Shown: piece by piece, positions 19,984 through 25,907 of the stretch
Numbering within the stretch: the stretch's first letter is position 1
Layout of the letters: every line of letters begins with the position of its first letter
DNA from: a virus
DNA: 64,000 nucleotides
IMG/VR virus record: IMGVR_UViG_3300035183_001040
Span: 1-64,000 of that record
Direction: 5' to 3' (one strand)
Notes under the pieces: generated by a model
What the model was told of the DNA's origin: nothing
Databases searched by the model: none
The model's input: the letters and a program-made list of their open reading frames with translations, nothing else
Position numbers and translations under genes: made by a program

Positions 19984-20505
19984 GTGTGCGGAATGATATG
20001 GCATCTCTCCTATCGCGCCGATCCGCGCGTCAGGGAGCTTGCAGATCGGCATTACAGTCGGCGGACGGTCGGCGCACCTCAATTCGTTCCGCCCGGCCGA
20101 TGTCTCGTCCTCTTCGTGCCAGGTGCGTTCTGGGTTACGTCATGGCAAGAATATACCAGGCACAATTGGAATGGTGCGTGGATGTGCAGCGCATTTCGGC
20201 GCGAGTACGGTGACATGATCGCGTCACGCATGATTGTGGATGCGCTCGCCGCGACCCGTTGGCGTTGGCCTGACGTGCCAGAAATCGCGTGTTCATGCGG
20301 GTGCCGGGTGGCGATGGTCACCTTCGTGGACGGCTCGAAGGTGAAGCGCAAGCGTGACCTCGGCCGATGTTTTCGGCGGGCAGGCTTCGTCGAGTGCACA
20401 CAGCACACGAAGAAATCAGGGCTGACCGTACTGCACATCGATCCGCGTGATCTGCCTGCGGCAGAACCTCCTATCGGAGCTCAGCGCATACTCCTTGGCT
20501 TGTAA
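19984..20505 (+). CDS. Unknown protein of a widespread phage family
   Basis: 173 aa from the GTG at 19984; an ATG three codons later is equally possible and neither has a strong ribosome site. The N-terminal MIWHLSYRADPRVRELADRH, followed by PPGRCLVLFVPGAFWVTSW and a TRHNWNGAWMCSAFR segment, is a pattern I recognise from proteins of actinobacterial and other phages with no assigned function. Cysteines in CSCGC near the middle may bind metal. Codon use supports coding from 19984; the 130 bases before it hold no clear gene. Confidence 0.7.
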   Translation: MCGMIWHLSYRADPRVRELADRHYSRRTVGAPQFVPPGRCLVLFVPGAFWVTSWQEYTRHNWNGAWMCSAFRREYGDMIASRMIVDALAATRWRWPDVPEIACSCGCRVAMVTFVDGSKVKRKRDLGRCFRRAGFVECTQHTKKSGLTVLHIDPRDLPAAEPPIGAQRILLGL

Positions 20506-21092: not shown

Positions 21093-21653
21093 ATGACTGA
21101 CAAGATTGCCGAAGCGTGGAGGACCATCCTTACAGAACTCGGGTATTCAGCGTCCGACGTGCACCTTGCAGAGTCTCCAGATCGCGTTGCCCGCTACATG
21201 CGGCAGTGGCACACGGCCGCGGCTCCAGCGCCGGAGCTTACGGTCTTTGACAACACCAACCCGCGCTACGACGAGTTGATCACGACGGAGCAGATTTGGT
21301 TCTACTCGCAGTGCGCACACCACGGGCTTCCGTTCTTCGGCACGGTCGCTGTCGGGTACATCCCCGGAGATCACATCCTAGGGCTGTCGAAGTTCGCACG
21401 GGTTGTCGACTACTTCGCGCACAGGTTCCAGGTGCAGGAGCGCATGACACACCAGATCGCAGAATTTCTCGACGAACGCCTAAGACCCAAGGGGTTAGGC
21501 GTGATCGTTCGAGCAGAGCACCTGTGCATGAGTTCCCGCGGGGTTCAGCGTCCCGGGCACAGGACTACGACGAGCGCACTGCGAGGTGTGTTCAGGGACA
21601 ACCCGGCAGCTCGTTCTGAATGGCTGGAATTCGCGAACGGAGGAAAACGGTGA
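21093..21653 (+). CDS. folE: GTP cyclohydrolase I (FolE)
   Basis: 186 aa. The key stretch is SQCAHHGLPFFG at residues 72-83, followed by VGYIPGDHILGLSKFAR (87-103) and QVQERMTHQIA. Cys74, His77 and Cys145 (in LCMSSRGV) correspond to the zinc ligands of E. coli FolE. The protein converts GTP to dihydroneopterin triphosphate, the first step of both folate and 7-deazaguanine synthesis. Its place beside QueD, QueE and a DpdA-type gene shows that the 7-deazaguanine branch is meant. The length is typical. Confidence 0.92.
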   Translation: MTDKIAEAWRTILTELGYSASDVHLAESPDRVARYMRQWHTAAAPAPELTVFDNTNPRYDELITTEQIWFYSQCAHHGLPFFGTVAVGYIPGDHILGLSKFARVVDYFAHRFQVQERMTHQIAEFLDERLRPKGLGVIVRAEHLCMSSRGVQRPGHRTTTSALRGVFRDNPAARSEWLEFANGGKR

Positions 21654-22009
21654 GTTCAGGCACGCTTGTGTGGGCAACGGAGCAGGTTGTCGGTTATCAC
21701 TGCTGGCCTGAGGCGCCGAAGGAGGACCGCATCGAGTACCTGCGTTCGCCTCATCGCCATGTGTTCAAAATCACGGTCTTTGTTGGCGTGACGAACGACG
21801 ATCGCCAGGTTGAGTTCCACGTACTCAAGCGCGCCATTCGGTCTCGCGGGCTTGCGCAGTTCGCAACCAACGAATTTGGTGAGTACGACTTTGGCTACTC
21901 CTCGTGCGAGGCGATCGCTCGGACCATCATGGACAACGTTGGCTTCGACGGAGTTCGCGCAGTAGAAGTCTCTGAAGACGGGGAAACCGGAGCAAGGGTG
22001 TTCAAATGA
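21650..22009 (+). CDS. T-fold/QueD-like protein of the modification cassette
   Basis: 119 aa. GTG start overlapping the folE stop, with GGAGGAAAACG before it. The pattern GYHCWPEAP, then SPHRHVFKITVFVGV and DRQVEFHVLKRAI, and later SCEAIARTI and EVSEDGETGA resembles the 6-pyruvoyl-tetrahydropterin synthase (T-fold) layout: a first His/Cys, an HRH pair like the HGH of QueD, and a C-terminal Glu strand. The Cys and HRH could hold a metal. It is not the pathway QueD, which is at 24724, so it may bind a pterin or the modified base. The fold is inferred by eye. Confidence 0.55.
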   Translation: MSSGTLVWATEQVVGYHCWPEAPKEDRIEYLRSPHRHVFKITVFVGVTNDDRQVEFHVLKRAIRSRGLAQFATNEFGEYDFGYSSCEAIARTIMDNVGFDGVRAVEVSEDGETGARVFK

Positions 22010-23058
22010 GAATTTTCATCGTTCCTATCGAACCTCTGGACGAGCGCTACAGCGAACAGTGGTACAGGTGGTGGCCGGAGGGGCTGGCTCGCCTTGGGCA
22101 TAACGTGTCCGTTGTAGACCCACCGAAAATTTTCGACGCGGGAAAGAAAATCAAACACGGACAGTTTCTCGACGTTTACGACACGAACATTTACAAGGCT
22201 GGGCAGGCAGCGACGCTGGCGCAACTATTTCGAGACGGCGTGATCTGCGACGGGGACTGTGTTCTGTTCCTCGATGCGTGGAATCCTGCCGTCGATCAAG
22301 CAGCGTACATGCGAGACGCGGGCGATCGAAAGGTCGTCCTCGCAGGATGCTGGCACGCGGGCACTTACGACCCTCACGACTTTCTTACGCAGAAGGGCAT
22401 GTCGCCGTGGGCAGCATACTCCGAGATGGCTTGGGGGCGCGCACTCGATCTAAATTTCTTTGCCACCGAGTTTCACGCTCGACTGTTTCAGGATACAAGA
22501 ACCCCCGATCCAGCTACAGTGCACGTGACTGGATTCCCGCTGCTGGCACAGGAATGGCAGCAGTACTCGATGCCGTGGTCCGAGCGTCCGATGATCGTTG
22601 TCTTTCCTCACCGGCTCGCGCCAGAAAAGGGCCTCGAAGACTTCAGGCAAATCGTGGAGCTGTACGAGAAGAGATACGCAACCGAACCCGAAACCAAAAC
22701 GATACGCTGGGTCAGAACTCGGGATGAGTACAGGCCGAAACAGGTTTACTGCGAGCTTCTCGGGTCGGCGCGGGTGGCTGTGAGCACAGCACGCCAAGAA
22801 ACTTGGGGTATAGCGATGCTGGAGGCTGCATCGTTGGGGTGTCACATTTGTGCCCCCGATCGCTTGTCGTATCCGGAGATCTACGAAGCTAAAGAGCTGT
22901 ATCGATCAGTGGACGAGGCGGTCGAGATCATCCACGCAGCGCTGCACGCGTCGGAGCCGCGGCCGTGGGATGGTGCACGCTGGGAGAACGCTATTGGGAA
23001 GGCTGCTGCGCTCATCCAGAAAAAGTGCGAGGAGATAAGAGCACAACGCAGTGTGTAA
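22006..23058 (+). CDS. Glycosyltransferase, GT4/GT-B type, resembling queuosine-tRNA mannosyltransferase
   Basis: 350 aa; ATG overlapping the previous stop. The C-terminal half is GT-B: PHRLAPEKGLEDF at 201-213, then VSTARQETWGIAMLEA around 259-274 containing the EX7E pair Glu265 and Glu273, and LGCHICAPDRLSYPEIY at 277-293. The order STA-x-x-E-x-x-G-x-AMLEA followed by GC, CP, LxYPEI is, from memory, very close to the QTMAN/GTDC1 enzyme that mannosylates queuosine in tRNA-Asp. Placed between FolE and DpdA, it probably adds a sugar to a 7-deazaguanine base in DNA. Neither the sugar donor nor the acceptor can be read from sequence. Confidence 0.8.
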   Translation: MRIFIVPIEPLDERYSEQWYRWWPEGLARLGHNVSVVDPPKIFDAGKKIKHGQFLDVYDTNIYKAGQAATLAQLFRDGVICDGDCVLFLDAWNPAVDQAAYMRDAGDRKVVLAGCWHAGTYDPHDFLTQKGMSPWAAYSEMAWGRALDLNFFATEFHARLFQDTRTPDPATVHVTGFPLLAQEWQQYSMPWSERPMIVVFPHRLAPEKGLEDFRQIVELYEKRYATEPETKTIRWVRTRDEYRPKQVYCELLGSARVAVSTARQETWGIAMLEAASLGCHICAPDRLSYPEIYEAKELYRSVDEAVEIIHAALHASEPRPWDGARWENAIGKAAALIQKKCEEIRAQRSV

Positions 23059-23104
23059 TCATCGGAGTTGATCGGCGGCGGCGTCGTCGCTGTTCGAGGT
23101 ACGA

Positions 23105-24025
23105 ATGAGGATAGCACTTGCTGGGGTTGAGAGTTCTCACGAACACTTGTGGGCAGCTTGTTTATCACGTGCGCGCTCTGTACTCACATCTTTCTTCTAC
23201 GCAGATACGATCGAACACTCGAACAGATTTAACCTGTGGAAATCGACGCTTCATCAAGCAACGTTTCGTCTTGTAGACTCGGGTGCATACACGTTCCGCA
23301 CCACCGCCTTGTGGGGCAACAAGGAAACCGCTGCAGGCATAGACGTCGACGCTTACCTCGACCGCTACATCAAGTGGATCTTGCGCATGCGGTCTTTGAA
23401 ACTGGTCGATTACTGGGTGGAGATGGACATTGGTGTGGCAGTTGGGGCAGAGTGGGTAACTCAGCACCGCAAGCGCTTCTTTGATGCGGGGCTCGGTTAC
23501 GGGCTTATCCGAGTTTGGCACTCTTTGGAAAGCGACTGGCAAGGGTGGCTGGACCTGATCGCCGAAGCGAAACAGCCGAATCGTTCCAGATTCGTAGCGA
23601 TCGAGGGAAGAAGCAAGTACTACGCACCGATTGACTACACCAAGTTTATCCGCGCAGCATACGACCAAGGAGTCCGAGTACACGGATTCAGAATGACAAG
23701 TTTCAAAGACTTGAAAAGGTACCCATTCTACTCCGTTGACTCGACAACTTGGACCACGGCGGTGCGTTTCGGTGTCACCCACTCTGTTCGAAACGGGTGG
23801 CTGGAATCAAGCTTGAACGGGGACCGGGTGTGGCGCGGTAGACTGATCCCACGGCGAACGTCGACGTACCGCACGCGCCTAGACCTGGTGAAGACGACTG
23901 CAGCGCAGTGGGTCAAAGCAGAAAAGCAAATCACAGAGCTATGGGAAAAGCGCGGCATAAACTGGGACAAACAACTGGAAAAGGTGCTGCATGAAGAAGG
24001 GAAAGCAACAACAGCAACCGTATAA
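23105..24025 (+). CDS. dpdA: DpdA-type transglycosylase (7-deazaguanine into DNA)
   Basis: 306 aa, ATG after GAGGTACGA. Features of the DpdA/TGT TIM-barrel family are: LVDSGAYTF at 57-64, VEMDIG at 105-110, RVWHSLESDWQGWLD around 136-150, FVAIEG at 163-168, VHGFRMTS at 192-199 and YSVDSTTW at 209-216. The two Asp residues in DSG and MDI would be the nucleophile and base of the guanine-exchange reaction. Phage and bacterial DpdA proteins exchange guanine in DNA for preQ0 or a related base. This one belongs to the short phage-type form, without the tRNA-specific zinc site of TGT. Confidence 0.8.
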   Translation: MRIALAGVESSHEHLWAACLSRARSVLTSFFYADTIEHSNRFNLWKSTLHQATFRLVDSGAYTFRTTALWGNKETAAGIDVDAYLDRYIKWILRMRSLKLVDYWVEMDIGVAVGAEWVTQHRKRFFDAGLGYGLIRVWHSLESDWQGWLDLIAEAKQPNRSRFVAIEGRSKYYAPIDYTKFIRAAYDQGVRVHGFRMTSFKDLKRYPFYSVDSTTWTTAVRFGVTHSVRNGWLESSLNGDRVWRGRLIPRRTSTYRTRLDLVKTTAAQWVKAEKQITELWEKRGINWDKQLEKVLHEEGKATTATV

Positions 24026-24755
24026 ACGCTTCGATGTGGGCGGCCTGCCGATGATCGTTCTTCCGATCGACCTCCCCGAAGACAACCCTGAGAACCCGAA
24101 CGAGATGTCCCCAGAGTTCTTCGAGAAGGAGAAGGAATCGATCAAGACCTACGGCATGATCGACCCGCCTGCTGTTCGAGAGCTGCCAGATGGGAGGTTC
24201 ATGATCGTCGATGGTCACCACAGACGCCGCGCCGCAAAAGAGCTCGGGCATGAGACGATCACCTGCGTTGACCTCAGTCGGATGAGCGACCATGACGCGC
24301 GCAAGTTCATGCTCATCGCGAACGAGCTTCGGGGACGCGCCGAGCCTGTGAAGCTCGCGGAGGTAGTGGCGACGCTTACCGCAGCCGAACCAATCGAGAA
24401 CCTCATCAGCACGCTGCCGTTCTCAGCGCAAGAGATCGAAAGCATGGTCAAAAGCATCGAGCCGTTCGACTGGTCCCCGGTAGGCATCGAAGAACCTGCC
24501 CGAGGCGGTGGTAGCGAAGGTAACGGCGGCTACGAGCAGGACAGAGTGTTCAGGCTCGGTTCGATCCACGCCCACATCCCCGTCAGGCTCCACGACGACC
24601 TCATGATCGAGTGGAGAAAAAGCGTCGAAGCTGTCAGCACACGCAACGCGGAGATCGTGCTTCGAGACATCCTGAAACGACTCCGGGCGTGCCCGCCTGA
24701 ACGGAAAGAGGAGGAACCGCACGATGATCACGATCACGAGAACGCTGGAAATTGA
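23991..24755 (+). CDS. ParB-like protein next to DpdA (DpdB-like candidate)
   Basis: 254 aa. The ATG lies inside the end of dpdA (35-base overlap). Residues 35-110 form a ParB/Srx domain: NPENPNEMSPEFFEKEKESI and the DGHHRRR motif at 74-80, which corresponds to the nucleotide-binding loop. The C-terminal part is helical and ends in an acidic His/Asp tail. In the bacterial dpd islands DpdB, a ParB/DndB-related protein, works with DpdA to insert preQ0. The position here suggests an equivalent partner. It is unlike the first ParB-like protein outside the core motif. Confidence 0.75.
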   Translation: MKKGKQQQQPYKRFDVGGLPMIVLPIDLPEDNPENPNEMSPEFFEKEKESIKTYGMIDPPAVRELPDGRFMIVDGHHRRRAAKELGHETITCVDLSRMSDHDARKFMLIANELRGRAEPVKLAEVVATLTAAEPIENLISTLPFSAQEIESMVKSIEPFDWSPVGIEEPARGGGSEGNGGYEQDRVFRLGSIHAHIPVRLHDDLMIEWRKSVEAVSTRNAEIVLRDILKRLRACPPERKEEEPHDDHDHENAGN

Positions 24756-25149
24756 CGCCGGCCACCGGCTTCTCAGGCACGAAGGGAAGTGCAAACACCC
24801 GCACGGGCACCGGTACAGATTCGACGTGACGCTCGGGTCGAACGGAGGCCTGGACGAGGTCGGGCGGGTCCTGGACTTCGGAAGAGTCAAGGACCTCGTC
24901 GGTAGGTGGCTGGATGACAACTGGGACCATGGGTTCATTCTTGAGCGGGGCGACCCGCTCGCAGCCTTCCTCGCGAGCTCCCAGTCCAAGCTCTACCTGC
25001 TCGACGCGCCCCCATCGGCCGAGGTTCTGGCCGCGCACCTTGCGGCACAGGTAAAGCGCACGCTCGCAGAGGAAAAGTCGCCGTTGTTCCTTGTTCGGGT
25101 CGTATGCTTCGAGACGCCGAACTGCTTTGCTACGTGGGAGGTCGGGTGA
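24724..25149 (+). CDS. queD: 6-carboxy-tetrahydropterin synthase (QueD)
   Basis: 141 aa. His14 in DAGHRL and His27/His29 in HPHGHRY are the zinc ligands, Cys23 is in the place of the catalytic Cys, DFGRVKDLV is at 51-59, WDHGFIL contributes Asp68 and His69, and FETPNC contributes Glu130. These are all hallmarks of QueD/PTPS. It converts dihydroneopterin triphosphate from FolE to 6-carboxy-tetrahydropterin. It overlaps the ParB-like gene by 32 bases and the next gene by one, so the pathway genes are translated together. Confidence 0.9.
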   Translation: MITITRTLEIDAGHRLLRHEGKCKHPHGHRYRFDVTLGSNGGLDEVGRVLDFGRVKDLVGRWLDDNWDHGFILERGDPLAAFLASSQSKLYLLDAPPSAEVLAAHLAAQVKRTLAEEKSPLFLVRVVCFETPNCFATWEVG

Positions 25150-25907
25150 TGCCTGCAGGCGGAACGTACAGCGTCAAGGAGATTTTCCTCACGGTACAAG
25201 GCGAAGGAGCGCGGGCAGGGTCGAAGGCCGTGTTTCTTCGGTTTACGGGCTGCAACGTTTGGACCGGGAGACCTCAGGACCGAAGCAAAGGAAAAGGCGC
25301 GTGCGCGGCTTGGTGCGACTCGGACTTCTTCAAGGGCAAGAACATGACGACGCGCCAGATTGTCGAGCGGCTGGATGAGCTCTGGCCCGACGACGGGAAG
25401 CATCAGCGGTGGGTCGTTTTGACAGGCGGCGAACCCGCGCTCCAGTGGGACATGACGCTCAGGTATGCGCTCGAGGATGCTGACTGGTTCGTGGCGATGG
25501 AAACCAACGGCACCGTACTCCTTCAGGCGCCCGTCGACTGGCTCACGGTCAGTCCGAAGCTCGGCACGAAGCTCGTCGTCACCCGAGGCGACGAGTTGAA
25601 GGTCGTCTTGCCGGGAGTAGCACCCGGGACCACGGAGCAAGGGTGGACGGCGGAGCAAGGGTGGACGGACGAACAGTTGGAGCAGCTCGCGGGGGTCAAG
25701 CGATTCGAGCACAAGTTCGTGCAGCCTCAGGATGTTGTCCGCCCTGAGGCGACTGGAGAAACCCTGCTCAGCCGGAACCTGACGCACCCTATGCACACGG
25801 CAGAAGCGTTGTTCAGAACGAGCGTGAAACGCTGCCTAGACTTCATCAACACGCATCCTGATTGGCGACTGAGCTACCAGGTCCACAAGGCAATCGGAGT
25901 CCCGTGA
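25149..25907 (+). CDS. queE: 7-carboxy-7-deazaguanine synthase (QueE), radical SAM
   Basis: 252 aa; the ATG overlaps the queD stop (TGATG). The N-terminus SVKEIFLTVQGEGARAGSKA and FLRFTGCNVWTG, then VVLTGGEPALQ and the METNGT strand, are those of QueE. The iron-sulfur cysteines are Cys35, Cys52 and Cys56, giving C-x16-C-x3-C. QueE proteins usually have C-x14-C-x2-C or C-x3-C-x2-C, so the spacing is unusual. The product is 7-carboxy-7-deazaguanine (CDG). No QueC for the next step to preQ0 is present in the window. Confidence 0.9.
   Translation: MPAGGTYSVKEIFLTVQGEGARAGSKAVFLRFTGCNVWTGRPQDRSKGKGACAAWCDSDFFKGKNMTTRQIVERLDELWPDDGKHQRWVVLTGGEPALQWDMTLRYALEDADWFVAMETNGTVLLQAPVDWLTVSPKLGTKLVVTRGDELKVVLPGVAPGTTEQGWTAEQGWTDEQLEQLAGVKRFEHKFVQPQDVVRPEATGETLLSRNLTHPMHTAEALFRTSVKRCLDFINTHPDWRLSYQVHKAIGVP

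Follow-up and report, generated by a model that had tools for sequence, protein, structure and literature searches.

A phage gene block with a QTMAN-related glycosyltransferase, predicted to add a sugar to 7-deazaguanine in DNA

Introduction

DpdA systems, the glucosylation of phage DNA and QTMAN (GTDC1), the tRNA-queuosine mannosyltransferase that acts on tRNA, are each already known. The 7-deazaguanine modification of phage DNA, with DpdA and DpdA2, has been described for phages 9g, CAjan and nt-1 (Hutinet 2019, PMC6884629). Here we analyse positions 1 to 64,000 of the virus record IMGVR_UViG_3300035183_001040 (64,000 nucleotides, hereafter the window), in which a block of seven genes at 21093-25907 combines a DpdA with a QTMAN-related glycosyltransferase (GT). 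This block probably encodes a pathway for the hypermodification of phage DNA, in which a sugar is placed on a 7-deazaguanine base by way of 7-carboxy-7-deazaguanine (CDG), a protein that we term P129, DpdA and the GT.

With the phage systems of Hutinet 2019 (PMC6884629) the block shares FolE, QueD, QueE and a DNA transglycosylase of the TGT family. Those systems use QueC to reach preQ0 and amido or archaeosine-type bases, whereas the block lacks QueC and has P129 and the GT; the main text of that paper contains no words beginning with 'glycos', nor the terms 'ParB' and 'DpdB'. Bacterial dpd islands resemble the block in that DpdA has a ParB-like neighbour, but in the phage loci ParB does not belong to the conserved core around the GT. 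The alpha- and beta-glucosyltransferases of T4 are also phage-encoded and act on a modified DNA base, as is predicted for the window GT, yet their base is hydroxymethylcytosine. QTMAN and the GT have a homologous catalytic half, with HR...K, E/D-x7-E and an RLSYPE-type motif in both; the GT differs in having no match to the domain QTMAN_N and in its predicted target, which is DNA and not tRNA. A literature search covering open-licence papers found no report of a glycosylated 7-deazaguanine in DNA, and the paper on Paride, one of the cultured phages considered below, makes no mention of deazaguanine.

Results

The GT (22006..23058, + strand) is predicted by AlphaFold 2 (AF2) with a predicted local distance difference test (pLDDT) score of 94.6 to adopt a GT-B, GT4-like fold that matches MshA, BshA and PimA. 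The model is similar to retaining GT4 enzymes, and the active-site residues are in place (E265-x7-E273, R203, K208 and H117). The fold gives no clue to the donor sugar, the T4 glucosyltransferases are not among its 50 best fold matches, and the Pfam match of the GT is generic and weak. For comparison with QTMAN, which covered bacterial homologues, Pfam PF12038 (QTMAN_N) was used to find five QTMAN-bearing genomes as a test set. In these genomes a profile of the phage GTs picked the QTMAN gene with E-values of 1.1e-18 to 2.1e-23, while the next-best other GT4, among 4 to 16 GT4-type matches per genome, reached only 1.9e-3; in a separate local scan, one control GT4 open reading frame (ORF) gave 5.6e-8 against 1e-20 to 1e-24 for QTMAN. 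Conversely, a QTMAN profile scored a median of 35.5 bits on 55 phage GTs and at most 16.4 on controls, which were ORFs from 30 GT4 loci. In both directions of this comparison, which had been proposed in a first-pass annotation of this DNA, the GT is thus closer to QTMAN in particular than to the rest of the GT4 enzymes. The motif R[LI]xYxE occurs in 47/55 phage GTs and 5/5 QTMANs but in only 1/113 control ORFs. The window GT carries it as RLSYPE at residues 286-291 (22861..22878, + strand, as computed from the residue numbers) and in bacterial QTMANs it reads RLSYPE, RLTYPE or RLVYPE; this is the motif that the annotation had ascribed to QTMAN as LxYPEI.

The kinship is confined to the C-terminal half and the linker. 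QTMAN_N finds no match in the window GT at E-values up to 10, and the N-terminal half resembles QTMAN weakly (hhalign probability 7%). Hence, the description of the GT as QTMAN-like holds for the catalytic half, which is nearest to QTMAN among GT4 enzymes in both directions, and falls short for the N-terminal half; the GT is therefore a relative of QTMAN and not a QTMAN itself. A search of the PDB with a bacterial query found no QTMAN structure.

When viral contigs were scanned with the GT, 80 loci emerged (numbered with an L prefix), and their neighbours were then searched with profiles. P129 is present in 79/80 of these loci, and a DpdA/TGT-type gene in 77/80: 36 have the window's DpdA type (A3) and 41 a second type (A4), the latter assigned, like the type A5 described below, by motifs (for A4 DSGGFQ, LDxP, QG, GG, HxLG and FDxASP) with weak Pfam and profile support. 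The three loci that lack a TGT-type gene are contigs of 6.4-7.1 kb. Since two TGT-like clans are involved, the link between GT and TGT is not the inheritance of one operon. The pairing of GT and DpdA is thus conserved in other phages, where the first-pass annotation had suggested looking for it, and of the computable findings that it had named as telling against its proposal, namely no relation of the GT to QTMAN and no conserved neighbourhood with DpdA, neither holds. Scanning with DpdA gave 50 loci, most of them without a GT, and here P129 occurs only where the GT occurs (Fisher 2.6e-5). Scanning with P129 gave more than 560 relatives; of the 80 loci kept, 44 have a GT and 36 do not, and 29 of these 36 carry the third TGT-like type, A5, which led us to reject P129 as a private partner of the GT.

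Among cultured phages, Paride, Phosso, ACP17, X1 and BUCT-ZZ01 carry GT, P129 and QueE, and in the stretch read FolE is found in Phosso, ACP17, X1 and BUCT-ZZ01 and not in Paride. In X1 a gene annotated as 'queuine tRNA-ribosyltransferase' adjoins the GT, and in Paride an A4 gene does. A radical S-adenosylmethionine (SAM)/SPASM or other radical SAM protein adjoins P129, GT or DpdA in most relatives (L001-L003, L005-L009 and L010-L033) but not in the window. It cannot be an obligate partner, because QueE is the sole radical SAM enzyme of the window and of L004, and no second one is seen in Paride, ACP17, X1 or BUCT-ZZ01. Each of three marine phage contigs with the GT (L070, L077 and L080, from records G100, G102 and G103) has between 9 and 11 radical SAM matches, a large part of them arrayed together. 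In 34 of the marine loci (among L034-L080) the neighbourhood of the GT includes a member of one phosphoribosyltransferase family; a salvage route through it in marine loci without an A3 DpdA was considered and dropped once the TGT-like A4 was found there. In L146 (1360-2304) and similar P129 loci, a protein that is FolE2-like by eye is present instead of FolE.

P129 (21620..22009, + strand) belongs to phrog_17812, a family with no known function, and is the only one of the seven genes that is not backed by family searches. Its AF2 model (pLDDT 93.6) has the QueD fold, with E. coli QueD (4ntk, E 2e-6) as best PDB match, and a sequence search of the PDB likewise gives PTPS/QueD matches. The first-pass annotation, which had labelled it 'T-fold-like', overlooked its apparent role as a key partner in place of QueC. 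Invariant in 50 P129 sequences are H27, H45, H47, E119 and S95-C96-E97. Aligned by hand, H27, H45, H47 and E119 correspond to the zinc histidines and ring-anchor Glu of QueD, while the catalytic Cys27 and Asp70-His71 of QueD have no matching invariant residues in the 50 sequences, P129 having its invariant Ser-Cys-Glu instead.

QueC was found above cut-off in 0/36 records with the GT, in 0/16 records with P129 only and in 17/21 DpdA records with neither, an exclusion (52 records versus 21) with a Fisher value of 3e-13 for records that are not fully independent and in part fragments. At other positions, GT records hold four QueC-like matches that fall short of the threshold. The window's own record has no QueC, so the block lacks what the preQ0/archaeosine branch requires. 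The mutual exclusion of P129 and QueC is a new observation of this analysis; because of it, P129 seems, in the simplest reading, to take over the step at which QueC would use CDG, and the reaction would most likely be a decarboxylation of CDG to 7-deazaguanine. A CDG decarboxylase named DpdL, associated with the base dDG, was reportedly described by Cui in 2023, and is not known to have a GT partner. P129 may be DpdL or a relative: it seems to replace QueC, and in Cellulophaga phage phiST it is present with no GT match.

DpdA (23105..24025, + strand), a predicted DNA-guanine transglycosylase, matches phrog_887 (queuine tRNA-ribosyltransferase) at 3.6e-29 and finds no match with Pfam TGT; in the PDB its single match is the DNA-guanine transglycosylase 7ui4, which is weak (E 0.26). 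Asp58, Asp108, His139, His193 and Asp212 are invariant across 42 relatives and are candidate catalytic residues; the phrog_887 match and D58, D108 and D212 accord with a TGT-family enzyme with catalytic Asp residues. The ParB-like protein (23991..24755, + strand; PF02195 (ParB_N) 6.1e-10) has Noc/ParB as structure matches and is a possible partner of DpdA. Its gene adjoins DpdA in many loci, not in all, and lies outside the conserved GT core; an equivalence with DpdB is therefore not established. A PADLOC defence search of the block gave no match except a weak one for ParB.

The block is real and lies where it had been placed: seven + strand ORFs, overlapping or separated by short gaps, in the order FolE, P129, GT, DpdA, ParB-like, QueD and QueE. 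GTP cyclohydrolase I, FolE (21093..21653, + strand), matches PF01227 (GTP_cyclohydroI) at 2.3e-57 and NF006826 above cut-off; 6-carboxytetrahydropterin synthase, QueD (24724..25149, + strand), matches PF01242 (PTPS) at 1.4e-25 and phrog_2389 at 5.3e-35; CDG synthase, QueE (25149..25907, + strand), matches TIGR04508 (queE_Cx14CxxC) at 2.4e-58, below the curated cut-off. For QueE a start at 25149 (M16) is probably correct and not the 25104 of the listed ORF. Family searches thus find in the block all three genes of the CDG route on which DpdA-type systems depend. The G+C content is 58% in the block and 63% in the window, which is compatible with a separate origin. On the 5' side lies a gene (19984-20505) that matches phrog_24928 (1.6e-40, unknown function) and weakly Pfam Vsr (0.0043). 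The source record of 74,760 bases carries head, tail sheath, baseplate and replication genes, and the virus is thus a contractile-tailed phage.

Searching genome contigs with the GT profile gave 21 loci, 18 of them with an A3 DpdA or A4 gene and 12 with P129. In Devosia, Aurantimonas, Azospirillum and Shimia, which are alphaproteobacteria, a Vut_1/YhhQ-type gene directly precedes the GT or P129, some of the Vut_1 matches of bacterial loci falling below the Pfam cut-off. YhhQ has a role in preQ0 transport (PMC5372724). Seven alphaproteobacterial islands (L229, L230, L231, L232, L233, L218 and L227) combine a YhhQ-type transporter, the GT and an A4 TGT-like gene, some also P129, and are possible chromosomal DNA modification loci. 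An ordinary TGT is also present in 11/11 genomes tested that have a bacterial GT locus, and the A4 gene is therefore an extra transglycosylase. Some of the bacterial GT loci may be prophages. In Paenibacillus polymyxa (L234, 8001-9020) a GT of the phage family (E 3e-111) has no P129 or TGT nearby; its neighbours, by eye, are mannose-1-phosphate guanylyltransferase-like and acyl carrier protein-like, and the locus is possibly a natural-product cluster.

Discussion

Taken together, these observations point to the following pathway. From what is known of their families, FolE, QueD and QueE would convert GTP to CDG. P129, which has no counterparts of the QueD catalytic residues, would then process CDG where other systems use QueC, with decarboxylation to 7-deazaguanine as the likeliest reaction. 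DpdA, which the ParB-like protein may help to target, would swap the product into phage DNA for guanine. Conserved linkage, an intact active site and the kinship with QTMAN suggest that the GT would add a sugar to the inserted base. DNA sugared in this way might escape recognition by host nucleases.

Several points weigh against this pathway. The glycosylated base is a prediction from genes. A decarboxylated product of P129 would offer no C7 hydroxyl or amine for an ordinary O- or N-glycoside, so that glycosylation would call for an unusual linkage (at C7, a ring nitrogen or the exocyclic amine), another P129 reaction or a host step. A4 and A5 are called TGT-like mainly by motifs, Pfam TGT reaching 0.026 at most, and PDB sequence searches with both gave no TGT. 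Some bacterial GT loci have no P129 within 8 kb. Finally, where the DpdA is of the window's type, the GT mostly has an extra radical SAM enzyme beside it (35 loci), and the window and L004 have none beyond QueE; such enzymes may elaborate the base further, yet they are dispensable, as their absence from the window and from several cultured phages shows. A more specific version of the pathway, in which P129 makes 7-deazaguanine and a GT of common lineage with QTMAN joins the sugar through carbon 7 or a nitrogen, giving a C- or N-glycosylated deazaguanine in the DNA of phages and island-bearing bacteria, strikes us as doubtful.

Among the alternatives, the one that survives best has the GT acting before insertion: its acceptor would be the free base, the nucleotide or the carboxylate of CDG (which would become a sugar ester), and DpdA would then place the glycosylated base in the DNA. 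A base-transporter-type gene adjoins the GT in several bacterial versions, and where QueC is missing the carboxylate of CDG is available as acceptor; we nevertheless consider this order of steps unlikely, given that small bases are what TGT pockets accept and that, as is generally known, phage DNA glycosyltransferases and QTMAN act on the polymer. It is also quite improbable that the GT works like QTMAN, putting its sugar on queuosine or a different 7-deazaguanine in the tRNA of host or phage, while the remaining genes modify DNA but do not glycosylate it. The nearest cellular relatives of the GT are indeed QTMAN proteins, which act on tRNA, but the GT is linked to P129 and to DpdA/TGT-like genes of two clans, QueC, which queuosine requires, is absent, the region of QTMAN that matches QTMAN_N is not conserved in the GT, and the hosts of the bacterial islands have a separate ordinary TGT. 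A GT that serves surface, teichoic-acid or lipopolysaccharide synthesis and is in the block by chance is hardly credible despite its generic, weak Pfam match and the fold matches to the surface-glycan GT4 enzymes WaaG, PimA and TarM, in view of the near-perfect linkage (77/80) and the specificity for QTMAN, and a more distant match in Xanthomonas phage PhiXhv-12 has another context (a malate-GlcN deacetylase neighbour), as would a generic GT4.

In summary, glycosylation of a 7-deazaguanine in phage DNA is the likely function of the block, a prediction that is directly testable on cultured phages. If true, sugar decoration of 7-deazaguanine would join the list of DNA modifications, in many environmental as well as cultured phages such as Paride, and the large family phrog_17812 would gain a function as an alternative to QueC. 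Similar islands would be predicted in bacterial chromosomes, and common ancestry would tie the glycosylation of tRNA to that of DNA.

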